Source of the DNA: Heliocidaris erythrogramma
Lineage: Eukaryota > Echinodermata > Echinoidea > Camarodonta > Echinometridae
Direction of reading: 5' to 3'
Assembly: GCA_025617745.1 (NCBI GenBank)
Contig: CM046863.1
Location: 15,752,875-15,816,874, forward strand
Length of the DNA stretch: 64,000 nt
The notes under the pieces were generated by a model that was given only the letters and a program-made list of their open reading frames with translations, had not been told where the DNA came from and did not search any database. Below, in pieces: positions 2,703 to 56,736 of this stretch (its first letter is position 1; every line of letters starts with the position of its first letter). The position numbers were made by a program, and so were the translations under genes.

Positions 2703-3264
2703 ATTTCCCTAATTTTGTATAATCAATGCATAAACAAATTTTGCCCATGTGACCTACTGTGTGTCTGGGTGTGTGAGGGTGCGTTTGTTTAGCATTATGT
2801 CCGAGGACATTTTCGGACAGAGAACAAAAAAAAATCATGACAACAATGGTCCTCGGAAGCCGGACAATAGTCCTCGAACGTCGAACAATGAATTTGTGCT
2901 TTATTCCGTCGACTGTCCGAGGACGAGTAACAATAGAGGAACAATACTTGTCCTCGGAAGTAAAGCCATGTAGAGCTGGGTGGGTGTGTGTGTTTGTGGG
3001 TGAGTAGTCATTGTATTATGTTATGCTCTGTAGATTAGTCCTCATACCATGTATATATGTTGTATTTGGTGTTGTCATTAAGTATTCTGTATTATTATCT
3101 TGCCATAAAGGGGCCCCACCTACAAGCGTTGCTTCTCATGGGGTCCTAAAACCTCTCAATGAAATAACGATGTCATTTATACCATTGTTCCATATTGTAT
3201 TCTCATATATTTGATTCGTTTGGTTTTGAATAAATGTGAATCTGAATCTGAATCTGAATCTGAC
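2703..3264 (+). repeat. LINE copy 1 3' untranslated region and (GAATCT)n tail
   Basis: About 560 bases follow the last RT frame. They contain several GTCCGAGGAC or GTCCTCGG motifs (2799-2958), a TG-rich patch and, at the end, AATAAA-like sequence followed by four GAATCT units. The next LINE starts directly after the tail, at about 3265. Confidence 0.6.
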
Positions 3265-5690
3265 TATCCTATATAAGGTCAACAGAGAGAAGAAGGAATG
3301 TATACTTCTTGGTGATTGTAACTTTGATTTGATCAAATTAGATATGCATAACCTATGTAATGAGTTTGTTGAACTCTTTTATTCATTTTTTCCCCTCTAA
3401 TCACGAAGCCAACAAGAATTACAAATTCTACAGCCACTTTGATAGACAATATATTTACAAATAGTATGTGCAATATTCTCCCTGCAATATTAACCTTTGA
3501 AGTATCTGATCACTTACCAATTTTTGCTGTGTTTGATTTTAAAGATATTTACAAAGAAAAAACAATTGTATTCAAACATCGCATCAGTGAAGTGACTATG
3601 AACTGTTTTCTTAATATTCTCTCTTCAACTGATTTTCACAAGCTGCTTTCTGTATATCATAAGCAACCAAACTTAATATATAAAAGTTTTATGGAGATTT
3701 TTTCTGAGATGCATTCTAACGGTTTTCCACTCAAAAGAACCAAGTACAAAAAAAAAAAATCATAAACCATGGCTTACCAAAGAACTTAAAAAGATGTGTT
3801 CTAGAAAAGAATACCTTTATAAGAAATATATTTAAAAAACCTACTGAACACAGTAAGGAATGTTACACCAAATTCCGTAATTTTTATACAAATCAAATAC
3901 GTGACGCTAAAAGAAATTATTGCTCTTCAAAGTTTTGTACTTTTAAAGGAAACATAAATAAAACTTGGAAAATTTTAAAGGTGTACTCCAAAGAAGCACA
4001 TCTCAGAAGAATAATTCTGTCTTTAAGAATAATAATTCAGTCATAAGTGATTCTAAAGAAATAGCAGTGAGGTTTAATGATTACTTTATATATATATTGG
4101 TCATAAACTAGCTCGTGCGAATAGAAACATAACAAATATTGACTGTACTGCATATTTAAGTAAACATTTTCCTCATACTGCATATTAATGCCTATCACTG
4201 AAAAAGAAATCATTAACAATGCTTTGTCATTTAAAAATGGGAAAGCTCCTGGTTTTGATTCTATTGATTGCATGGTAGTTAAGAGGGTTATTCATGTTAT
4301 ATCTAAGCGGTTTGCAATATTTATGCATTGAGCATGTTAGTGTACCAGCAGACATGACAATTGCTAAGGTCATTCCTGTATACAGAAGGGACCAAAACAT
4401 TTATTTTCAAATTACCGACCTATTCATTACTCCCGATTTTCTCAAATATCTTTGAAAAATGTATTTATACCCGACTACACTTTATTCCTGATAAACATAG
4501 TATTCTTTATAGCACGCAGTTTGGATTTAGGGCCAGGTATTCCACAGATCATGCTCTTTTGGATTTGTTGATGCATGTATCCAAGGCAACTGAAAACAAA
4601 GAAATTATTGGCATATTTTTAGACTTAAAAAGGCATTTGACTCGATTAACCATGATATTCTAACCAAACTTAATCATTATGACATTCGTGGTATTATTCT
4701 TCAATCATTTCGCAGTTATTTAAATAATCGCAATTTACTGTTTTCGGTTCTCAAAATTTAAGTTCACAAACAGTCTCCTGGGGCATACCGCAGGGACCAA
4801 TTTTGGGCCCACTTCTCTTCTTAATTTATATAAACGATTTGCACTCAGTTTCGCAGATGTCACTAATACATTTTATAAGCATAAAGATGTAGAATGCCTG
4901 ACCAAATTTAACAATGAACTTAAAAAGGTAAGCGAATGGATTGATGTAAACAAACTGCAACTAAATTATGATAAAACCCATGTCATGATGTTTAATCTTC
5001 CAACAAACTGTAATCATGAAGTTAAGATATATATGAATGGGAATTTAATAGAACATACAAATACAACAAAGTTCTTAGGCATCCATATAGATAAAGATTT
5101 AAAGTGGAAAACTCATGTTTATGAAGTTTTACGCAAAGTTTCTAAAACAATAGGAGTCATGAGTAAATTAAAAGACATCTTACCTACAAATGTTCTTGTA
5201 ATGTTGTATAATCACTGATTTTATCTTACCTTTCATACTGTAATATTGTATGGGGTTTCTGTCATCAACACTTATTACACCGCATACTTCTCTTACAAAA
5301 GAGAGCCATTCGTATAATCTGTCACAAACCATATTTAAGTCCTGGTAGACCACTCTTTTTGAAATTGAATGTTCTCCCAATTTCATTATTACACGATTTT
5401 CAGCTATGTATTTTTATGTATTCATACTATCATAACTTACTACCAGATGGTTTTTGTAATGTCTTTCAGAGCAATAATGTTATTCATAGATATAATACTA
5501 GGATCTCAACAGACACTCGTGTTATATATGGCCGTTCTTCCTTTTCAAATAATATTTTCCTTTGTAAAGGACCCTCTGTTTGGAACAAACTACCTCTAAA
5601 AATTAAGCAGTGTGCGACATTGTACAGCTTCAAGCGTAGTTTAAAACCTTATCTTATGCATAAACTTTGAATTTAATTTCATCTTAATTT
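3265..5690 (+). mobile_element. Degenerate 5'-truncated LINE (copy 2)
   Basis: A second plus-strand LINE abuts the tail of copy 1. It begins inside the endonuclease domain: YILLGDCNFDL at about 3300-3340 has the GDxN motif, and a SDHLPIF motif at about 3510 is the catalytic SDH. RT blocks follow: LPIFSNIFEK at about 4435, the KAFDSINHD block at about 4630, GIPQGPILGPLLF at about 4785 and a FADVTN block at about 4850. The second catalytic Asp of FADD is changed to Val, and several stops and frameshifts occur. The C-terminal part is at 4985-5218 and 5359-5670. Its distance from copy 1 suggests a different family. Confidence 0.8.
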
Positions 5691-6497
5691 CGCCTTTTTT
5701 GTTTGATGTAACTGTCTGGTCTGGTCGACAATCACCAACCGTCAGTTAATGCACACCACCAGCCCTATCAGCAATCATCTGTCGATGGCAATCGCTCAGC
5801 TCTGAAGATGTGCATTTTGCTGCGCTTAGATGTGGAGCATCTTTAAGCATTATCTTTAACCAGCAGGGATTGCAGCACCTAATTATTGATCAGCATGAAT
5901 AGACAATAGGCTGCAGAGTAAATGTCACATGAAACTTCGGTGAGATCCATCGGGTCATGATGGGAGCGGATATAGTGTGATGGCTAGTCAGAGGCAATCC
6001 TTTCACTTTAGGGATGAACTAGGCCTACAATATCCATATAACAATAATTTACGTAACAGTAAACCAACACTTTTATTAAAACAACATAATCCCTCCTCAA
6101 TAACCACTGATTCCCGGCAAGACAACTTTATCAAGAAATAATCTATCAAAATGAGACATTACAAAACCCATATATCATTTATATAATTATGCTAATTTTC
6201 CTGTCTGGACGATCGCCTGGAAGATCCACTACATTAAGAAGAACCGCAACGGGAAGGATCTAATGAAAACGATTGGCCTTCCTTGCTTTCAGGCTGTGCC
6301 ATATTTCTAGTTATTTATATATATTTTATTTCTTATTTATCCATTCATTTTATTTATTTTTATTTTGCCTTGAATTATTTTGGTACTCACTGAACAAAGA
6401 ATGAACTATGTAGATATGTTATGTATTCTATTATCATTGTAATCTGATACCCTAAAAGGGTCAATAAACTTTCAAAACTTTTCAAACTTTCAAATTT
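5691..6497 (+). repeat. Unassigned sequence ending in a LINE-like 3' tail
   Basis: From 5691 to about 6290 I see no gene or recognised repeat. From about 6290 the sequence becomes T-rich and ends in GGTCAATAAACTTTCAA with repeated CTTTCAA units (6460-6497). This resembles a LINE 3' end with a simple-repeat tail. It may be the true 3' end of copy 2 with an insertion between, or the tail of another truncated LINE. Confidence 0.35.
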
Positions 6498-6801
6498 TCA
6501 CCCTTATGTTCCTTATGTCAATCCGTCATAAGTGTAATTCATGAAGGACGCCCTGCTCATTGTCAGACCTTTGTACTGGAATTACAAGTCTGACGATAAA
6601 TTAGGTACTGATTAAATGATAAAGTATCACTGGAAAATGATCAAACAATAAACCATTATTTAAGTGTACTAACATTTAATTCAGCACATCTTTTCCAATA
6701 TAATACAAGTATATACAAAATAAATATTTGTTTCGGTATACATCATTCATATATTAAATATTTAAATATGGCACGAAAAAGAGACATGATAACGAAGCTT
6801 T

Positions 6802-7596
6802 TCGACCGGGCAATACGCGAGATGGGACTCGTACAGTGCAACTTCATACAAGATTGGGCTCATTAGAAACTTAGTGTGCCGCGCCCTTAGGATTTGCTCT
6901 GCGTACAAATTAGCTCCCGAAATCGCGAAAATCAAAAATATTCTCCTTGACAATGGTTACCCTGAGCATGTTATATCTCGCACCATAACACGGACGCTGG
7001 AGGCACAATCCAAATCTGACACCAGATTTGGGCCTGCCAAATGCCCCGTGTATCTCAAACTACCCTGGAGGGGTAAGGTATCTGACAAATACGCCAGTCA
7101 GATCAAACACGCAGTGTCACGTTGCTATTACGCGGTTTCGACACGCATTGTGTTTTCTACACACAGGATGCTACCGTCAGCTAGCAAGGATGTACTACCC
7201 ACCCCCCACTTGAGTAATGTTATTTACCAATTTCAGTGCCGGTGCGATGCCAGGTACGTGGGCCGTACTTCTCAGCGGTTGGCTGATCGCATTAAACAAC
7301 ACATCCCCTCGACTGTTCGGAACCGTACAACCAATCAGCGCACGCAGCCCGTCCGTGCCTGCAAATCTGAAATGCACGCTAACAGACCAAAGATAGCCAA
7401 ATGCGATTCGGCGATTGGTCTCCACTTGCTGAACAATCCAGCTTGCGCACAAAGCTATGACGACGATCAATTCTCAATTATGTCCCGGGCCAGAAGCTCA
7501 GCGCATTTACGCTTTCTGGAAGCGGCTTACATTCAATCGCATGAACCTCTTCTGTGCAGACAAAAGGAGTTCGTCCAAGCTTTGCGATTGTTCTGA
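6802..7596 (+). pseudogene. Penelope-like RT C-terminus plus GIY-YIG endonuclease
   Basis: The frame is open from the left inverted repeat. It starts with ARWDSYSATSYKIGLIRNL, then VCRALRICS and NGYPEHVI, which are the characteristic end of the Penelope RT and the linker. The GIY-YIG nuclease lies at about 7216-7330: VIYQFQCRCDARYVGRTSQ, with VIY in place of GIY and an intact YVG, the Arg of GRT and a downstream RIKQH. A Cys pair (CRC) precedes the YVG. The frame ends in a TGA at 7594-7596. The RT fingers and palm, including the catalytic Asp pair, are missing, so this copy cannot move itself. The long intact frame of about 265 codons suggests a fairly recent insertion. Confidence 0.88.
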
Positions 7597-13427: not shown

Positions 13428-13486
<59 letters not shown>

Positions 13487-13489
13487 CAG
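13409..13489. repeat. (CA)n then (TA)n compound microsatellite
   Basis: ACACAC repeats with one CTC interruption run into TATATA repeats interrupted by AAATA. It sits directly beside the hammerhead-bearing remnant. Confidence 0.95.
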
Positions 13490-13499
13490 TAAATGTATT

Positions 13500-13800
13500 T
13501 TAACCTGCAAATTACTGACAGTGCTCAACTAGGGGAGCTATAGTGTAATATAAATATAGGTTAGAGCTGTTCAACTTTTATTCAGTTGAACAGACTGTTT
13601 CACCCGAAGGCTCATCAGCAACTGAATCAAACTTTTTACAAGCTATAATGAGTTAAATACAGCATAAAGACACTTTACGCATATGCAGTCGAGTATGCGA
13701 AGGAGGGGACGATTATAACTGGCAATACAATTGTTTAGCCAATAACAATAGTGTCCAGTCAGCATTGTGCCTAAGAGGCTTAAAGTGGTGGGTTACCAGT
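13500..13800 (-). mobile_element. Probable solo Penelope-type terminal repeat around the hammerhead
   Basis: On the minus strand, sequence upstream of the ribozyme (13628-13800) has no stop-free frame that I trust. Downstream of it is a strong hairpin, CTGTTCAACT with AGTTGAACAG, that overlaps stem I sequence (13566-13592). The left side ends at the CA/TA microsatellite. The boundaries are guesses. Confidence 0.4.
13580..13627 (-). ncRNA. Hammerhead ribozyme, compact Penelope/retrozyme type
   Basis: Read on the minus strand from 13627 to 13580, 48 nt. Stem I 5' half is ATTCAGTTG, paired perfectly over 9 bp with CAACTGAAT at the 3' end. The core CTGATGA is canonical. Stem II is GCC-TTCG-GGT with a UUCG tetraloop. 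GAA follows, then a 4-bp stem III (ACAG/CTGT) with a single-base loop, then the cleavage site GUU before stem I closes. All invariant core residues are present. A stem III too small for a stable monomer is typical of hammerheads in Penelope-like elements and retrozymes, which act as dimers. Flanking sequence at 13500-13800 is probably the rest of a solo terminal repeat, since no coding part is adjacent. Cleavage activity is inferred only. Confidence 0.85.
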
Positions 13801-13979
13801 ATTGTTGCAGGGCGGGGGGGGGGGGGCGGGGGCGGGGGCAGGTGATATTAACCATATTCGGAAAGTAGAAACTTTTTCTTATGTCTCCATGTTGAAATTA
13901 GTTCAGTTCTAGAGTTCAATGTTGCAGATTTCTTGGCTGTGATTATGTAGTACTTCTCCCACAAGCAAAGGTTTCCCTT

Positions 13980-14025
13980 CATCTCTCCCCCCCCCCCCCC
14001 CCCCCCCCCCTCTCTCTCTCTCTGT
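13980..14025. repeat. (C)n(TC)n compound microsatellite
   Basis: About 25 C bases followed by eight TC units. The same C-then-TC arrangement recurs at 42867-42898. Confidence 0.95.
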
Positions 14026-21210: not shown

Positions 21211-22869
21211 TTGGGAATTTCCTTTGTCAACATGATGAACTTCAATACGTCTTTTGATTCCCTCATTAATGACGACCTATTTAATTTGTTAAGACCAGAT
21301 AATTCTGATGATAGCACTCATATTACATATAAATATGATTCTACTGCAGATAATATGAATACATCCTCTGATGAACTTAATCTTGATGATAGTGACCCAG
21401 CCCAAGGTGCTCTTTCAACATTTATTACAAATAATCAGTTTCATAATATTACCAAAGCTTTTAATATAAATACATTTTCCTTACTACATCTTAATATTAG
21501 AAGTCTGAAAAAGCATTTTGATGAATTACAATTACTTTTAAATAATTCCCCTAATCAACTCTCTATAATCGGTCTAACTGAAACCTGGTTGTCCCGTGAT
21601 GTTAACCAACCCTTTTCTCTCGATAATTACAATCTCATTTTGAATAATAGGCAAGGGAGAGTTGGGGGTAGCGTCTCAATATACTTGCTTAAAAAGTTCA
21701 ATTACATAACTCATAATAATATTTCTGTAAGTAATAACGTTGTAGAATCACTTTTTATTGAGATCATAATTTCTGGGAGAAAGAATATTATAGTTGGCGT
21801 GGTTTATCGTCCCCCAAATTCTAATGTTAACGATTTCCTGGTGTATTTATCTGACTTGTTTCATGATCCCATTTTCATTAACAAAGATTGTTTTATCATG
21901 GGAGATTATAATATAAACTTATTGAATAATGATACTCGCGTTTCTCATGACTTTCTTGAAACATTTTTAGCCACCTCGTTCTTGTCCCTTATCTCTAAAC
22001 CTACCCGTGTCTCAAATAATTCAGGCACCCTTATTGATAACATATTTTCTAACGTCATCCCTCATCCTAACTCGCATATTATTCTTTCTGACATTACAGA
22101 CCACTATCCCATTATGACTTATTATAATATTTCACAATCTGCCTTTAACCCCCGTCCCCATCACCTCCGGCGTAAAGTCACGCATGAAAGTGTTGCTCGT
22201 CTAGGAGCTAGTCTTGAAAACACAAATTGGTCGTCTGTTTATAATGATAATGACGTTGATTCAAGTTATGAGAATTTTTGCCATATCTTAAATGAAAAGC
22301 TAGACAATTGTATTCCTTTACAAAGAGATAACCGCAATAACTACAAGAAATCTCCTAGACTCCCATGGATCAGAAAATCGCTTCTACGCTCAATTAACAA
22401 AAAGAATACTCTATATTATAAATATACATACACTGGTACAGATATATCACGCAAGAAATACACTACATATAAAAATGCTTTACTGTCAATTATTCGTTTT
22501 GAAAAGAAGAAATACTTTGTAAATCGATTAGCATTACATAAACATGACATGCAAGGAACTTGGAAAATTTTAAAACAAGCAATGAATGTATCGAATAATA
22601 ATAGTAATATTACTCAAATAAAATGTAATAATGAATTTATTGAAGACCCTCTCACCATAGCTAATATTTTTAATAATCATTTTACCTCGATTGGAGACAA
22701 CCTTGCGCATAATATTCCTCCATCTAATAAAACTTGTGCAGATTTTTTAGGTCCTCGTATTCCAAATTCCATATTTCTTAATCCAACACACAAATCTGAG
22801 ATTATATCTTTCGTTTCTCACCTACACAATAAGAAAAGCTCTGGATATGATGGGTTTAAAAATTTTTAA
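21211..22869 (+). CDS. LINE copy 3 endonuclease and N-terminal RT
   Basis: A 552-codon frame. The first 80 residues are acidic and unstructured. APE-type endonuclease follows: LNIRSLKKHFDEL near residue 92, LTETWLS (catalytic Glu) near 122, GVVYRPPN near 195, MGDYNIN near 230, TLIDNIFSN near 275 and a SDITDHYP block near 290 (the SDH-like catalytic His). A basic linker (RRKV, KKYFVNR) leads to the start of RT, KKSSGYDG, where a frameshift ends the frame. The protein would nick target DNA and prime reverse transcription. All key endonuclease residues appear intact. The start Met is at 21211, but MMNF at 21232 is equally possible. Confidence 0.85.
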   Translation: MGISFVNMMNFNTSFDSLINDDLFNLLRPDNSDDSTHITYKYDSTADNMNTSSDELNLDDSDPAQGALSTFITNNQFHNITKAFNINTFSLLHLNIRSLKKHFDELQLLLNNSPNQLSIIGLTETWLSRDVNQPFSLDNYNLILNNRQGRVGGSVSIYLLKKFNYITHNNISVSNNVVESLFIEIIISGRKNIIVGVVYRPPNSNVNDFLVYLSDLFHDPIFINKDCFIMGDYNINLLNNDTRVSHDFLETFLATSFLSLISKPTRVSNNSGTLIDNIFSNVIPHPNSHIILSDITDHYPIMTYYNISQSAFNPRPHHLRRKVTHESVARLGASLENTNWSSVYNDNDVDSSYENFCHILNEKLDNCIPLQRDNRNNYKKSPRLPWIRKSLLRSINKKNTLYYKYTYTGTDISRKKYTTYKNALLSIIRFEKKKYFVNRLALHKHDMQGTWKILKQAMNVSNNNSNITQIKCNNEFIEDPLTIANIFNNHFTSIGDNLAHNIPPSNKTCADFLGPRIPNSIFLNPTHKSEIISFVSHLHNKKSSGYDGFKNF

Positions 22870-27950: not shown

Positions 27951-29010
27951 ATGAAATAGGGTAAAAAAAGGGAAAAAATACAAAAAAATTACCAACGGAA
28001 ATATATTTTTTCCCTATTTTTTTCTATTTTTATTTCAAGAAAATAGGATAAAACTAGGAAAAAAATAGTTTGTCAAAAATATTTTTTTCCTATTTTTTTC
28101 CTATTTTGTATAGCGTAGAGATAGCTACTTGTAATAGGATAAAAATAGGATTGAAACACATTTTCCTATTTTTTCCCCTATTTTTCCCTATTTTTATTCC
28201 AAGAAAATAGGATAAAACCAGAAAGAAAATAGTCCTTCGAAATTATTCCGGAAATAGGAAAAAAAAACAAAAATAGGATGGAAATAGGATTAAATTAGGT
28301 GAAAACTAGGTAGAAAATAGGGGAAAACACGTTGAAGAAAATAGTGGGAGATGGAAAATAGGAAAAATATAGAAATAAAATAGTGGAAAACTAGGCAGAA
28401 AATAGGATAAAATTTGATTGAGAAATAGGATAAAATAGGAGGAAATAGGAATTGAATAATGGGAAACTACAGAAAAAATAGGACAAAAACAGGAATAAAA
28501 TAGTGGAAAACTAGGCAGAAAATAGATTGAATCTAATTGAGAAAATGCAATGTAATAGGAAATATCTACAAAGAAAATAGGAAAACCAGATTGAGAAACT
28601 AGGATAAAACTTGATTAAGAAAATAAAAATAGGGAAAAACTAGAATGAAAATAGGGTGAAAATTGGGATTGAATAATGGGAAACTAGAGAGAAAATAGGG
28701 CAAAAACAGGAATAAAATAGTGGAAAACTAGGCAGAAAATAGGTTAAACCTAATTGAGAAAATACAAATAAGGAATAGGGAAAAACTAGGGAGAAAATAC
28801 AAAGAAAATAGGAAAACCAGATTGAGAAACTAGGATAAAACTTGATTAAGAAAATAAAAATAGGGAAAAACTAGAATGAAAATAGGGTGAAAATTTGGAT
28901 TGAATAATGGGAAACTAGAGAGAAAATGGGGCAAAAACAGGAATAAAATAGTGGAAAACTAGGCAGAAAATAGGTTAAACTTAATTGAGAAAATACAAAT
29001 ACAAAGAGGA
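27951..29010. repeat. AAATAGG-rich degenerate tandem array, first block
   Basis: About 1 kb made almost wholly of short units such as AAAATAGG, GGATAAAA and TGGAAAACTAGGCAGAAAATAGG, with higher-order copies. A segment at about 28576-28720 recurs nearly unchanged at about 28803-28950. The strand is strongly purine rich from about 28200, with pyrimidine-rich CCTATTTTT stretches at 28000-28200. Confidence 0.85.
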
Positions 29011-29240
29011 AGACCTCCTCACAACCCAGGTCGAAAATCCTATAGACAGAATTTCTATAGGTCCCATAGAGACCCATGTCTCTATAGGTTTCTATATGGA
29101 AATGGTATATGGGACACCCATAGAAATCCTATGGGTGTCTATGGGACTGATAATCCTGTAGGTTTCTATAGGTCCAATAAGAAATCCTGTAGGTTTCTAT
29201 AGGACCTATAGAAAACCAATAAGAAAATAATTAACTATAA
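29011..29240. repeat. TATAGG/CCTATA-rich palindromic repeat
   Basis: Repeated TTTCTATAGG, CCCATAGA and CCTATGGGTGTCTATGGG units on both strands form many short palindromes. It appears to be a different local repeat between AAATAGG arrays. Confidence 0.7.
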
Positions 29241-29557
29241 GATTAATATAAGAAGAAATGCTGTGGGTGTCTACAGGAACAATCACATGACATTATTAAT
29301 TATTATTTTATTAATCCTATCTTGTAATCATATCCTATCCTATCCTCTCCTACTCCTATAAATCCTATAGCCTACATCCTATGTCCTATACCTAGCTACT
29401 AAGCAATTGTATCACATTCATTATATATAGGGACATAGTTGTAGTGCTATAAAAAAAATGGTTACTGACTAGATTACACTTTTATTATTAAAATTGATTT
29501 ACACTTTTATTAATGAAATATGAAAATGCCTTTTGAAATTGTGTACAACATTACAAT

Positions 29558-30598
29558 AATTCAGAAAAAGGTTTGCGGTACAACCATGTGAGTTGGAATA
29601 ACTCCACGTTCCGGTCAGAATGCTCTGGCCGTCGTCAGGAGAATGAGAAGAGCGAATAAATCAGCAGAATTTATATATGAAGCAGCAATTCACTTAATAA
29701 AAATGGATGCAAACAAATAACATAGAAAGAAATAGTAACAGTAATATCAAAGTACCTACATTGAAAGGATAAATAACATCAAGGTACCTGCATTGAAAGG
29801 ATAAGTGACATCAAACGAATCCTGCGTTGAAAAGAAACAATGAAAACAAGTGAACAATAGGACTAAGAAATCAATTAACCGTCTGGATAAGCTGGAAACA
29901 AAAGGGGGATTGGGACCGTAGGTAATCTGTGGAGAGAAACATGGCATCCTGTTGAGGAAAGAAATTAAGGTTAAAACATACATATGGAAAAGGTGAAATA
30001 TTGACAACAGAATACTAATAAGTATACTAAGTATACTAATAATAAATATTGTGAAAGGCTGTGGAGAGAAAAAAAAAACAAAAAACAAAAAACAAAAAAA
30101 CAATGATAATGAACAAATTGAGGAGAGAAACATGAAATCCTGTTGGAGATAATCTGTGGAGAGAAACAAGTCATCCTGTTGAGGAAAGATATTAAATTTA
30201 AAACATACATGTGGAAAAAAGGTGAAATAATGACATCAGAATGAGTATCCTAATGATGAATATAATGAATGTTATGAATGAAACAACCAAACAAAGGTAA
30301 TGAACAAGTTGAGGAGAGAAACATGAAATCCTGTTGAGGGAAGCAATTGTGGTTAAAATACATAAAAAATTATAACACTGGTTATTATTGGAAGAGTGAA
30401 AACCAAATGTCGCTGATCTGTAAACCCTTGTCCTGTGTAACTGTGTCATGTTTGTGAATCTCGATGGCTTCACGGACCCTCCTGGTATACCAGTTGGAAG
30501 CGGGGGCTACAAGCTACCTGACGACGGCCAGAGCATTCTGACCGGAACGTGGAGTTATTCCAACTCACATGGTTGTACCGCAAACCTTTTTCTGAATT
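29558..30598. mobile_element. 1-kb element with 82-bp perfect inverted repeats
   Basis: 29558-29639 is the exact reverse complement of 30517-30598. Each arm, read outward from the interior, starts CCTGACGACGGCCAGAGC and ends CTTTTTCTGAATT. The arm contains CTGACGA, a paired stem (CGGCCAGA with TCTGACCG) and GAAC, then a GAGTT/AACTC hairpin. This arrangement recalls Penelope terminal repeats with a hammerhead-like core. The interior (29640-30516) has no transposase and includes a repeated unit containing GAGAGAAACATGAAATCCTG (about 29930, 30130 and 30310). Confidence 0.65.
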
Positions 30599-30779
30599 AC
30601 AACTTCACCATGCAAACCTTCAAATCCTATATAACATTACAATAGTTTAATGTAAGTAAAATTTCTATCAAAGTTCAAATCTTAATCCCAAATCTAAATG
30701 TATTTATCTATTTCCACTAGTTTTCATATTTTAGATTGTTATTCATGAATATTCATGATTGATTAGGACCTATATATAG

Positions 30780-32420
30780 AAACCAATAGTTGGGAAACTA
30801 GAATAAAACTAGTGCTGGAAAAGATAAAGTTTGGAAAATAGTATAAAACTAGTGCTGGAAAAGATAAAGTTTGGAAAATATGATAAAACTAGTGTTAGCA
30901 AAAGTACAGAAGTCAGGAAACTAGAATAAAACTATAGTGCTGGAAAAAATAAAGTTTGGAAAATAGGATAAAACTAGTGCTGGATCATGGGGAAAGATAA
31001 AAGTTTGGAAAATAGTACAAAACTAGTTTTAGAATAATGAGAAAACTAGGATGAAACTAGAGCTAGCCTGAAAAATAGGATAAAACTATTTTTTGACAAA
31101 AATGAAAAGTGCAAAAACTAGGGAAAAAATAGTCCGGAGAGAAATGAGGTCTAAAAAATAGGAAAAAATCAGAAAATAGCCTCAAAATAGGCCTATTTCT
31201 ATTATATTTTCCATGGGAAATAGGATAAAAATAGGCCTATTTTCCTGAAATAGGAATAAAATAGGTGAAAAATAAAAAAATAGCCTAAAATTACTTCCAT
31301 TTTCTTCCTATTTCCGAGGGAAATACAATAAAAATAGGCCTATTTTCCTGAAATAGGAAGAAAATAGGTGAAAAATAAAAAAAAATAGCCTAAAATTACT
31401 TCTATTTTCTTCCTATTTCCGAGGGAAATACAATAAAAATAGGCCTACTTTCCTTAGAATAGGAAGAAAATAGGTGAAAAATAAAAAAAATATTCATTTT
31501 TTTTTTCAATTTCAAGACATTTATTTCCAACTTTTCAATATAAGTGTACAAAGTAATAATGTTTTAAACAAAAAATACGACATAATACACATCCATAGTT
31601 GGAGGACACACCTCTAAAAGCAAAAGCTTGAGGCGAGGGTGCCCTTAGTAACATAATACATAATATTACATAATAAATATATAAAAAGAAAATAACTACA
31701 TACAAAAAAAAAAGAAAAAAAATAACATTCCTTCACCGCTGAGCTTAATTGGAGGGAAAAAGAAAAAAGAAAGAGAGAGAAAAAAAAGAGCGATAAAGAG
31801 GGGAAAGGGTGGAAGTGCAACATAAAATGAGTAAGGATAAGAGATGTATTTTCAAATAAGCAGAGAGAAGAGAGGGAGAGAATAGGCCCAATGGAGTGTT
31901 GGGAAGAATCTTAAACCATATTATTTGTAAGATGAAGTGAAATGTTTTTTATCCTTCTTGAGAAGCTGGCAAGAGATGCAGAGTATTTTATTGTGTCAGG
32001 GATAACGTTCCACAGCTTCCATTTTCTTCCTATTTCCAAGGGAAATACAATAAAAATAGGCCAATTTTCCTGAAATAGGAAGAAAATAGGTAAAAAAAAA
32101 AAAAATAGCCTAAAATTACTTCTATTTTCTTCCTATTTCCGAGGGAAATACAATAAAAATAGGCCTACTTTCCTTAGAATAGGAAGAAAATAGGTGAAAA
32201 ATAAAAAAAATAGCCTAAAATTACTTCTATTTTCTTCCTATTTCCGAGGGAAATACAATAAAAAATAGGCCTATTTTCCTTAGAATAGGAATTAAATAGG
32301 GAAAAAATAAAAAATAGCCAAAAAATAGATCTAATTTTTCATATTTTCCAAAGAAAATAGGAAAAAAAATAGGCCTATTTTCGTTTAAATAGGAATAAAA
32401 TAGGGGAAAAATATATTTTC
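30780..32420. repeat. AAATAGG-type array, second block with ~110-bp units
   Basis: After a zone of GGAAAATAGTATAAAACTAGTGCT-like units (30780-31080), the array changes to units of about 110 bp, each with TAAAAATAGGCCTATTTTCC, GAAAATAGGTGAAAAATAA, TAGCCTAAAATTACTTC and TTCTTCCTATTTCCGAGGG. At least five unit copies lie between 31190 and 32400. A LINE fragment interrupts them at 31492-32018. Confidence 0.85.
31492..32018 (-). mobile_element. 5'-truncated LINE fragment inside the AAATAGG array
   Basis: It matches 35062-35588 (the 3' end of LINE copy 4) with small differences, in the same minus orientation. It keeps the 3' untranslated region and a few codons of the C-terminus, and stops at CCACAGCTT. 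Array sequence resumes immediately. This is the expected structure of a truncated target-primed insertion. Confidence 0.85.
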
Positions 32421-50567: not shown

Positions 50568-52651
<2,084 letters not shown>

Positions 52652-53994: not shown

Positions 53995-56736
53995 TCATAA
54001 CAAACTGGGAGGCCCTCTCGGAGAGCCCCGAGTTTCTGGCGTCTTCCCCAACAACGGCCAGGCAGTCAAGTGGAGGACCGCTGGGCGTTGATGAACAATC
54101 CCCGAGAGGGGTTGAATTATCAAATCCTCCCTGAGAGGAAGGGGAAACGGATGGCCGGCCAGGAGACTCAGCAGGTCTGGAAACCAATGTCTCGCTGGCC
54201 AATGTGGGGCTATCAACAAGAGCCAAGCCCCGTCCTCCTTGACCTTCCTCAAGACCTGAGGGATCAGAGGAATGGGGGGAAAAGCGTATCCCCGGATAGC
54301 TCCCCAATGGAGGGAAAAGGCATCCATCGCCCACGCCTCCTGATCCCGAACCCGCGAGCAATACCTCGGGAGTCGATGATTGAGGGTGGAGGCGAACAGA
54401 TCGATCTCCAGAGGACCCCACACCTCTTGGAGAAGAGCAAACACCTCCGGATGAAGAGTCCACTCTGACGGGAGGCATTTGCCCCGAGACAGAAAATCCG
54501 CGATCAGATTGTCCTGACCGGGAATGTAGGAGGCTACCGGAATAATGTTCATAGACCGGCACCACCTCCACAACTGGGCAGCTAAGGTGTTCAGAGAGGA
54601 AGACCGAGTACCGCCTTGGCGATTGATATAGGCAGCTACTGTGACATTGTCCGTAAGAACGAGTACAGTGCGACCAACAAGACCGGGCCTGAAATGATGA
54701 AGAGACAGGCTGACCGCCATGATTTCCAAAACATTGATATGGGGCATAACTCTCAAGTGAGACCAGTCCCCTGAAATCATCTCGCCCCGGCAATGACCAC
54801 CCCAACCGAGAAGGGAGGCGTCTGTCGCCAGAGAAACTGACGGAAAAGGGGTACAGAGAGGCTTGCCTTGGGCAAGAAACGAACTGTTCGTCCAGGGGGC
54901 GAGAAGGAGCTTGATATCTCTTGGGAGTGGAATCCACCCCAAAGGAGAATCTTTGCCCGGTCTGAAAAACTTGAGGAGGTGCCTCTGAAAGGGCCTCATC
55001 AACAGCCTGCAGTCTGGCAAGACGTCGACTAGACTGGCCAGATAGCCCAGGAATTGAAGCCATTGTCTGGCTCTGACCCTGCGGGCCGCTCGCAATGACC
55101 GTGCGGTCATGGTGATAGTCCGAATTCTGTCCCGACTGGGGCGGGCAAGCTGATTCGGGATATCTATCTCCGCACCCAAGTACATCGGGGTACGTGTGGG
55201 AGATAATTCCCATTTTTCCCAGTTTATCAGAAAGCCTAAGTCTTGCGTTAGCCGCAGTAAAAGGCATAACTGATCCAACAGGAGGGACTCTGAGTTTGCA
55301 ACTAGGAGCCAATCGTCTAGATAGACGAATAATCGGAGGCCGCGATTCCGTAGAAACGCGGCCAGGGCCGACACTATTCGGGTAAAGACTCGAGGGGCCG
55401 GCCTCAGCCCGAAAGGCAGGGCACGAAATCGAAACGTTTCGCCCCGGAACGCGAATCCCAGCAAATTTCTCGACAGAGAGTGGATGGGAATGTGAAAGTA
55501 CGCGTCTTTGAGATCGAGGGAGATCGCAAGGTCGTCCCGCTTGATCAAGGGCAGAATAGATGCCAAGGTCTCCATGCGAAAATGCACTGGAGGTATAAAC
55601 CTGTTGATTCTTTTCATATTTAGAATCATACGTAAACTTCCCGAGCGCTTGGGAATGACAAATATTGGGGAGAGACAGAGATGAGGATGATCTCTCACCC
55701 TTTCTACAGCGCCCTTTCCCAGCAGCGTGGCGATCTCTGAGGAGATGTGCTGCTGGAAAAGGGCGGACATTGGAGGCGGGCGGATTCTGATGGCGCCGTT
55801 TGGAATTGGCTTTATCAGATCTATGTAAAAGCCGTCGCGCACGACGGATAGCACAAAGGTGTCGCCGGAGATTGCCTCCCAAACTGGGAGGAATCTCCGG
55901 AGCCGCCCGCCTACACTGTCCACAAGCACTCGGGGTAAGGTATCAAAAGGCCGACTTGGGCCTACCCGAGGGATAGTCACAGTCACTCGACGCTTTGAGC
56001 GGTTAGCGCCTGTCGAGACCGACTTAGACTTCGGAAAGGACCGAGCAGGCCGAGTGGGCAAGAATTGTCTGGCCATCTCCTTTGCCTGTTTGCGACCCTC
56101 TATCTCTTTGTGGAAGACCTCATTAAACTGGCCCCCAAAGAGTTTGGGATGCGAGGAAGGGATACCCCGCAAGAGAGGCGGGATGTCTTTCTCTAGCACT
56201 CCCAGTGTGGAGAGCGCCAACTTGCGGCGTTGATGCGTAATGTCAATCGCCGCTGATGAGAGCTGAGACCACTGAAGTCCAGCTAACAAAAGCAGGAGTT
56301 CATCCAACAAATTGGAGTCCCCCTCGGTCACATTCAGTTCAACTGATCTGGCCCGAAGGCGTAACAGTGAACCCAGGTACGCCGAAAGCCTTAAGCCCGA
56401 CCTGACTTTGGTTTCAAAGTTCACTAGGGGCTTCTCGGCGGATCTATAGGACTGAGACTTGAAATTGATATTCAAACGTTGTCCCATACCCAAAATTTCC
56501 TGGGATAAACCCTTGGCTGAAAAGAAGCCCTGGGTATCATCCCGATAGAAAGAGAAGGCACTACCAAAGGGACGTCGGGTAGCCCGACCCGCATCGGTGA
56601 GTGCCTCCCTATCCCCATACTCCTGTTTGAAGTCCTCTGTAAGAGGAATACCAGGAGACGGGCCATGCTGTCTGAATACTTGGGGAAAAATTTCTGGCAT
56701 ATACTTCTCTAACAGGGCCTTGGCATCTGCCGCCAT
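53995..56736 (-). CDS. DIRS RT, RNase H and methyltransferase-like polyprotein
   Basis: A 913-codon uninterrupted frame. The N-terminal 300 residues are the end of a gag-like or linker region (MAADAKALLEKYMP and onward). RT spans about residues 330-560: LRMILNMKRIN, ISLDLKDAYFHIPIH, RALPFGLRPAP and FVYLDDWLL with the YLDD catalytic pair. RNase H spans about 640-770: SLATDASLLGWGG, INVLEIMAV, VLTDNVTVAAYINRQGG and LIADFLSRG. The C-terminal part has EIDLFASTLNHRLP and YAFPPIPLI, matching the position and FPP-type motif of the methyltransferase-like domain of DIRS elements. The enzyme would make cDNA in the cytoplasm or nucleus. The frame is full length, unlike its neighbours. Confidence 0.85.
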   Translation of the reverse strand: MAADAKALLEKYMPEIFPQVFRQHGPSPGIPLTEDFKQEYGDREALTDAGRATRRPFGSAFSFYRDDTQGFFSAKGLSQEILGMGQRLNINFKSQSYRSAEKPLVNFETKVRSGLRLSAYLGSLLRLRARSVELNVTEGDSNLLDELLLLLAGLQWSQLSSAAIDITHQRRKLALSTLGVLEKDIPPLLRGIPSSHPKLFGGQFNEVFHKEIEGRKQAKEMARQFLPTRPARSFPKSKSVSTGANRSKRRVTVTIPRVGPSRPFDTLPRVLVDSVGGRLRRFLPVWEAISGDTFVLSVVRDGFYIDLIKPIPNGAIRIRPPPMSALFQQHISSEIATLLGKGAVERVRDHPHLCLSPIFVIPKRSGSLRMILNMKRINRFIPPVHFRMETLASILPLIKRDDLAISLDLKDAYFHIPIHSLSRNLLGFAFRGETFRFRALPFGLRPAPRVFTRIVSALAAFLRNRGLRLFVYLDDWLLVANSESLLLDQLCLLLRLTQDLGFLINWEKWELSPTRTPMYLGAEIDIPNQLARPSRDRIRTITMTARSLRAARRVRARQWLQFLGYLASLVDVLPDCRLLMRPFQRHLLKFFRPGKDSPLGWIPLPRDIKLLLAPWTNSSFLAQGKPLCTPFPSVSLATDASLLGWGGHCRGEMISGDWSHLRVMPHINVLEIMAVSLSLHHFRPGLVGRTVLVLTDNVTVAAYINRQGGTRSSSLNTLAAQLWRWCRSMNIIPVASYIPGQDNLIADFLSRGKCLPSEWTLHPEVFALLQEVWGPLEIDLFASTLNHRLPRYCSRVRDQEAWAMDAFSLHWGAIRGYAFPPIPLIPQVLRKVKEDGAWLLLIAPHWPARHWFPDLLSLLAGHPFPLPLREDLIIQPLSGIVHQRPAVLHLTAWPLLGKTPETRGSPRGPPSLL

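Follow-up and report, generated by a model that had tools for sequence, protein, structure and literature searches.

A minimal hammerhead ribozyme motif in a probable Penelope-like element remnant of Heliocidaris erythrogramma and the unequal ends of its paired relatives

INTRODUCTION

In a 64,000-nucleotide stretch of the genome of Heliocidaris erythrogramma (C11:15752875-15816874, here called the window), 48 nucleotides of the minus strand read like a hammerhead ribozyme. What kind of sequence carries this motif, and what do its relatives in the genome (1.06 Gb searched, in 26 contigs) suggest about the way in which it is copied? Type I hammerheads are defined by a conserved core and three helices, with stem I open and a base other than G at H17. 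The hallmark of Penelope-like elements (PLEs) is an open reading frame (ORF) with a telomerase-like reverse transcriptase (RT) and a GIY-YIG endonuclease. Minimal type I hammerheads reportedly occur in the pseudo-LTRs (pLTRs) of PLEs, as Cervera and de la Pena (2014) and Lunse et al. (2017) are said to have described. They are a published class, for which dimeric cleavage has been proposed (via PMC7761336). Comparisons with PMC7761336, PMC11167929, PMC3846280 and PMC7229834 concern the portions of these papers that were available to us.

RESULTS AND DISCUSSION

A minimal type I hammerhead motif in the window

Read from position 13627 to 13580, the minus strand is ATTCAGTTG-CTGATGA-GCC(TTCG)GGT-GAA-ACAG(T)CTGT-T-CAACTGAAT, and all core residues are present (Table 1). 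The CUGAUGA...GAAA core, the three helices, the open end at stem I and an H17 other than G place it in type I. The original prediction had named an invariant core, a 9-bp stem I, a UUCG-capped stem II and a stem III of 4 bp around one base, and each of these is indeed found in the sequence. The predicted cut falls after U13589 (GUU), which we take from the general hammerhead scheme; GUU is not the most favourable cleavage triplet. For the 48-mer, the fold of minimum free energy (-13.6 kcal/mol) differs from the hammerhead fold, which comes to -7.9 kcal/mol with a 3-bp stem III because the energy model permits no one-base loop.

TABLE 1 Features of the hammerhead motif and of the element around it
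Feature	Position in window	Strand	Basis
Whole retained element, probable 5'-truncated PLE	13488..13973	-	blastn vs L055, L056, L057, others
Last 41 codons of probable PLE ORF (C-terminal GIY-YIG-like region)	13851..13973	-	tblastn of L055 ORF piece, translation
Stop codon TAA	13848-13850	-	
pLTR equivalent with ribozyme	13488..13698	-	L055 3250-3460, 93.9% over 213 alignment columns
3' tail, ~60 nt	13488..13547	-	absent from tailless copies ending ~13546-13554
(TA)n microsatellite, 3' junction, presumed target	13441..13486	.	tandem repeat finder
5' junction: short spacer and C/CT-rich tract	13974..14020	.	L055 homology stops at 13973
Minimal type I hammerhead ribozyme	13580..13627	-	sequence, descriptor scan, covariation
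Stem I	13619-13627 paired with 13580-13588	-	9 perfect bp
Core CTGATGA	13612-13618	-	
Stem II	13602-13611	-	3 bp, one G-U, UUCG cap
GAA	13599-13601	-	
Stem III	13590-13598	-	9 nt; 4 bp around one base
Cleavage-site base	13589	-	
Predicted self-cleavage site (GUU, then C)	13588..13589	-	position within hammerhead scheme

A loose hammerhead descriptor, scanned over both strands, found this single site in the whole window and gave no match in 300 simulated 64-kb sequences of equal dinucleotide make-up. Neither the descriptor scan nor a covariance model revealed a second hammerhead in the window that could partner it. A covariance check against the Rfam hammerhead families had been proposed, and here nothing reached the gathering score: up to E = 10, RAGATH-1-hammerhead was the only Rfam ribozyme family at the site, with 16.3 bits against a threshold of 56.3, and it was absent from the listing of the Rfam whole-window scan. 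Since PLE hammerhead variants are described as minimal in the available text of PMC7761336, we did not take the Rfam threshold as defining. A covariance model (R1) built from copies in the same genome scored 73 bits at the site, as expected by construction because its training set includes the window sequence; its only other match in the window was the complement of the same place, with 11.4 bits.

Relatives of the ribozyme and covariation

The core CTGATGAGCCTTCGGGTGAAACAGTCTGT with up to two mismatches matched 64 + 63 times in the genome, whereas the reversed control matched 0 + 0 times; the pattern CTGATGAGNCN{2,20}GAAAC matched 131 + 123 times, versus 21 + 16 for its reversed control, and 100 of these 254 places were listed. 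The inspected copies fall into at least five families, named A (that of the window) to E, which differ in their flanks and have kept the ribozyme.

With one sequence from each of the five families, 89.4% of the pair cells held standard pairs and 13 of 17 pairs were changed on both sides (shuffled mean, 4.9); none of 500 shuffles matched any of the five observed measures, and all three helices contributed. When 13 sequences spanning families A to D were used, 92.3% of the cells paired and 53 cells were changed on both sides, compared with 21.3 after shuffling (0/500), but neither the number of pairs changed on both sides (141/500 shuffles) nor that of further pair types (439/500) rose above shuffles in this set. 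This covariation is independent support for the predicted hammerhead fold, with compensatory changes in all three stems. That the motif is a chance look-alike, as the lack of an Rfam match above threshold might suggest, is a practically negligible possibility in view of the empty simulated windows, the 127 core matches against none in the control and the compensatory changes.

Stem III reads ACAG-N-CTGT or ACTT-T-AAGT in the family representatives. Being quasi-palindromic, it allows two copies to pair in trans over 8 bp, and the computed energies of this duplex are -8.3 (A), -6.9 (B) and -3.6 (C) kcal/mol, versus +2.1 for the 3-bp hairpin form. The suggestion that the small stem III makes the ribozyme cut as a dimer is plausible, judged from the 9-nt quasi-palindrome in the five compared families, and stands as a prediction. 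H17 is U, C or A across the copies and G in two decayed ones. The likeness to the PLE pLTR hammerheads of PMC7761336 extends to type I, the location in the pLTR, a weak or absent stem III, the proposed dimeric cleavage and the absence of evident loop-loop contacts; unlike those, as far as they are described in the available text, the present ones have a 9-nt quasi-palindromic stem III in five families and U, C or A at H17. A close natural direct pair lies at C12:11190657-11190743 (minus strand), where two family E hammerhead cores stand on the same strand 58 bases apart.

The element that carries the ribozyme

Although the original prediction saw no coding part adjoining the ribozyme, the end of a PLE ORF lies about 220 bases upstream on the same strand, and its last 41 codons are 97.6% identical over 41 amino acids (tblastn) to the ORF end of a longer relative, L055. 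The window copy retains ORF end, stop codon, 3' untranslated region (3'UTR) and pLTR and runs into (TA)n; it is truncated and tailed, has only the 3' pLTR and has no inverted partner. Other pieces of L055 were not found in the window by tblastn up to E = 1, and blastn gave only short matches with E values of at least 0.55. We conclude with considerable confidence, from the sequence comparisons, that the element is the 3' end of a dead, 5'-truncated PLE copy whose pLTR contains a minimal hammerhead of type I; the proposed link to Penelope-like elements is borne out by the ORF end and the pLTR. The PLE pLTR hammerhead is an already known class, and the window ribozyme is ordinary for it. The C-terminal 45 amino acids (13851-13985, minus strand) also gave a sub-threshold match to the Pfam family DHX37_C (E = 1.5e-4; 22 bits versus a cut-off of 27), which is possibly a chance match or a transposon piece within that family's alignment.

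The longer relatives give the order of parts. L055 (family A, C9) consists of (TA)n, a pLTR (3251-3460), an ORF region with frame breaks, a 3'UTR that contains a C tract, a second pLTR (5932-6141) and (TA)n; the pLTRs form a direct repeat with 98.6% identity over 210 bp, and of the ribozymes, the one at 3330 has one core change and the one at 6011 is intact. In L018 (family C), direct hammerhead copies at 5355 and 8374 flank related ORF pieces, to which the L055 pieces are ~56-67% identical. In both elements, YRDD and other motifs and a GIY-YIG-like C terminus were read by eye, which we take to be those of the RT and the endonuclease. Sequence searches of Pfam, NCBIfam and PDB recognised neither RT nor endonuclease in L055 or L018; the best profile trace was T5orf172, presumably a GIY-YIG relative, on L016 (E = 0.18, far below its cut-off), and hhalign against the other GIY-YIG ORF of the window lined up the motif with a probability of 1.8%. 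Other PLE traits were found among the relatives: 5' truncation, inverted head-to-head pLTRs, an optional 3' tail and an AT-rich target.

Two other origins had been considered originally. One is a small, non-autonomous animal retrozyme of the non-LTR kind, in which a repeat a few hundred bases long is spread as circular RNA. Such retrozymes likewise place a type I hammerhead within a mobile element, and both kinds are found in animal genomes (PMC7229834, PMC7761336). This reading is very improbable, because a PLE ORF end lies within the element, the site shows no tandem repeat of 150-450 bp, the window has a single hammerhead and no same-strand pair at 150-450 bp was seen among the 100 of 254 places listed; moreover, with an uninterrupted stem I and a UUCG loop II, the loop-loop contacts of canonical retrozyme hammerheads are not evident. 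The coding remnant and the lack of tandem units at 13580..13627 thus set the element apart from the animal non-LTR retrozymes as described in the available text of PMC7229834. A solo pLTR left after recombination between two pLTRs would account for the pLTR being the main conserved part, but the copy spans the ORF interior, the 3'UTR and the pLTR, which indicates 5' truncation rather than pLTR recombination; with the ORF end in place, this second proposal is extremely unlikely.

Ends of the copies

Copies of this probable PLE group end at one of two sites, either tailless or with a tail of ~50-80 nt; in family A, the short end lies at ~13548 and the long end at ~13488. In families A, B and C, (TA)n was found at 17/17 tailless and 16/17 tailed ends (33/34), counted over ends captured by end motifs, with a few rows duplicating one insertion; excluded from the count are two internal pLTRs running on into an ORF, the copies with read-through into the tail, and the anomalous right arm of L082, which has no (TA)n after it. 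From their flanking sequences, these PLEs appear to insert at (TA)n. Because the ends lie inside microsatellites, any target-site duplications are masked. The Poseidon element of Anolis (PAc) likewise has pLTRs, a hammerhead and an AT-rich target (PMC11167929), and the Penelope families of Adineta vaga have inverted pLTRs and head-to-head copies (PMC3846280).

Head-to-head pairs within 10 kb were collected from DNA searches with families A, B and C, and their outer ends were classed by ranges of alignment ends. This gave 34 pairs, 30 of them with both outer ends classified; 28 were mixed, with one tailed and one tailless arm, and 2 were concordant (0/100000 shuffles). Each of the four unclassified pairs has an arm that ends at neither site. 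The concordant pairs are L083, with two long arms, which by eye resembles a palindromic (inverted) duplication including flanks, and C17:6475405, with two short arms. Family E, which was sampled selectively and has at least six further pairs outside the classification, gave five pairs within 10 kb: three mixed, one concordant with both arms long (C1:52141654 and 52149091) and one unclear (C13:34783947); a mixed pair at 11.3 kb (C1:42023753) was left out of the count. Six further family E partners of long arms, known as ribozymes from the core search but missing from the best-40 list of the family E search, were predicted beforehand to be tailless and indeed were so (6/6), a weak test because arms missing from such a list are more likely to be short.

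Taken together, exactly one arm is tailed in 37 of the 40 classified pairs, out of 45 examined (0/200000 shuffles), with all three concordant pairs, L083 included, kept in the count. The mixed pairs number 7/7 in A, 8/9 in B, 13/14 in C and 9/10 in E (28/30 without E). Merging likely duplicates leaves 33/36 mixed; the two merges in family A are backed by shared sequence, whereas in C and E only matching breakpoints or proximity speak for merging. As each search scored the best 40 candidates of 90 (A), 340 (B), 58 (C) and 163 (E), short-short pairs may have escaped detection, especially in B and E. For long-long pairs, of which two were seen, no such shortfall is expected.

A tail on one of two inverted pLTRs was known before: in Adineta vaga, a 31-bp tail is optional and one-sided, as here (PMC3846280). 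In the available text of that paper, these are examples, inverted junctions are read as self-priming and no genome-wide count of tail asymmetry was found. The present analysis adds the near-strict count; our literature search, with the PLE papers of 2014, 2017 and 2021 and older reviews outside its scope, found no comparable one. A near-strict rule constrains how both target strands are primed in PLE integration, a poorly understood process, and lends itself to testing with any genome rich in PLEs as well as with the published in vitro system; this is the part that merits a specialist's time.

The count is compatible with cDNAs being made in a coupled fashion on the two target strands, each from a different start site. 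In PAc, two adjacent cDNA start sites explain the tail, and both target strands are cut and extended, as may be the case here; according to the accessible text, however, PAc starts inside its ORF and its ribozyme overlaps the start codon, whereas in the present copies the two end sites both precede the first Met codon of the L055 ORF, and PAc showed no start-site difference between the strands in vitro, whereas the paired arms here nearly always differ (PMC11167929). Tentatively, and at slightly below an even chance, we propose that one integration comprises two cDNAs, one per target strand, that are obligatorily started at different fixed template sites, so that only one of them has a tail; the two protomers of a dimeric complex might, for instance, each start one. 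Head-to-head pairs would then be what integration normally yields, and isolated arms like the window copy would be half products.

Maintenance of the ribozyme and possible use in replication

Of 31 family A pieces found, 27 were aligned to the window copy as reference, after four with less than 85% identity had been dropped. Mismatches to the window copy amount to 28/807 (3.5%) in the ribozyme and 16/558 (2.9%) in the ORF end, versus 135/1483 (9.1%) in the 5' flank, 54/693 (7.8%) in the 3' flank and 50/670 (7.5%) in the tail; restricted to the core and stems II and III, the ribozyme figure is 21/488 (4.3%). The difference between ribozyme and flanks (Fisher p = 2.9e-7) is only indicative, because the aligned copies are not independent of one another: L069 and L070 share 99.5% identity over ~5 kb, and L061 and L062 share 98.1% over 4.5 kb. 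The pattern suggests selection on ribozyme and ORF alike in a replicating lineage. A use of the motif by the host, for example in RNA processing, could be argued from the intact window ribozyme and from the role in mRNA biogenesis suggested for a few amniote hammerheads (PMC7229834). Such domestication is exceedingly improbable: a look at the ORFs and Pfam matches of the window, made without intron models, identified no adjoining host gene, and selection on a replicating element explains the low divergence of the ribozyme among copies.

In such an element, a transcript spanning two pLTRs might fold its two hammerheads into one dimeric ribozyme through the 8-bp shared stem III, which would then cut after U13589. 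Uncut RNA would be the template for new copies, made at (TA)n by target-primed reverse transcription, since the two apparent cDNA start sites, ~41 and 101 nt downstream of the cut, would both be lost with the 3' fragment of a cleaved 3' pLTR. The window copy could represent a single tailed cDNA whose synthesis ended prematurely in the last ORF codons. In a search of 18 loci for 5' ends at the cut site, which would point to cleaved templates, arm starts were found dispersed around the ribozyme or far upstream; no more than a few, in family A, come within a few bases of the cut. The PAc ribozyme of Anolis is active only with protein and is dispensable for insertion in vitro (PMC11167929).

Other features of the window

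An open frame at 6793-7596 (plus strand) has a GIY-YIG domain (PF01541, E ~1e-4, just above the cut-off) and is probably another PLE-like remnant. What is apparently the same sequence start adjoins the PLE copy L087. On the opposite strand, related copies bear the hammerhead-core-like CTGATGAGTGCAGGTCGAAA with a possible stem I and no clear stem II (L056 4101, minus; L059 2616, plus; L062 2013, plus). LINE-type-looking remnants with reverse transcriptase, endonuclease/exonuclease and RNase H domains lie at 828-2702, 3373-5670 and 21211-22869 on the plus strand and at 50568-52127 and 53995-56736 on the minus strand. The region 28270-32413 is densely filled with A-rich tandem repeats with periods of ~11, 22, 44, 105 and 231 bp, many of them made from AAAATAGG-like units.
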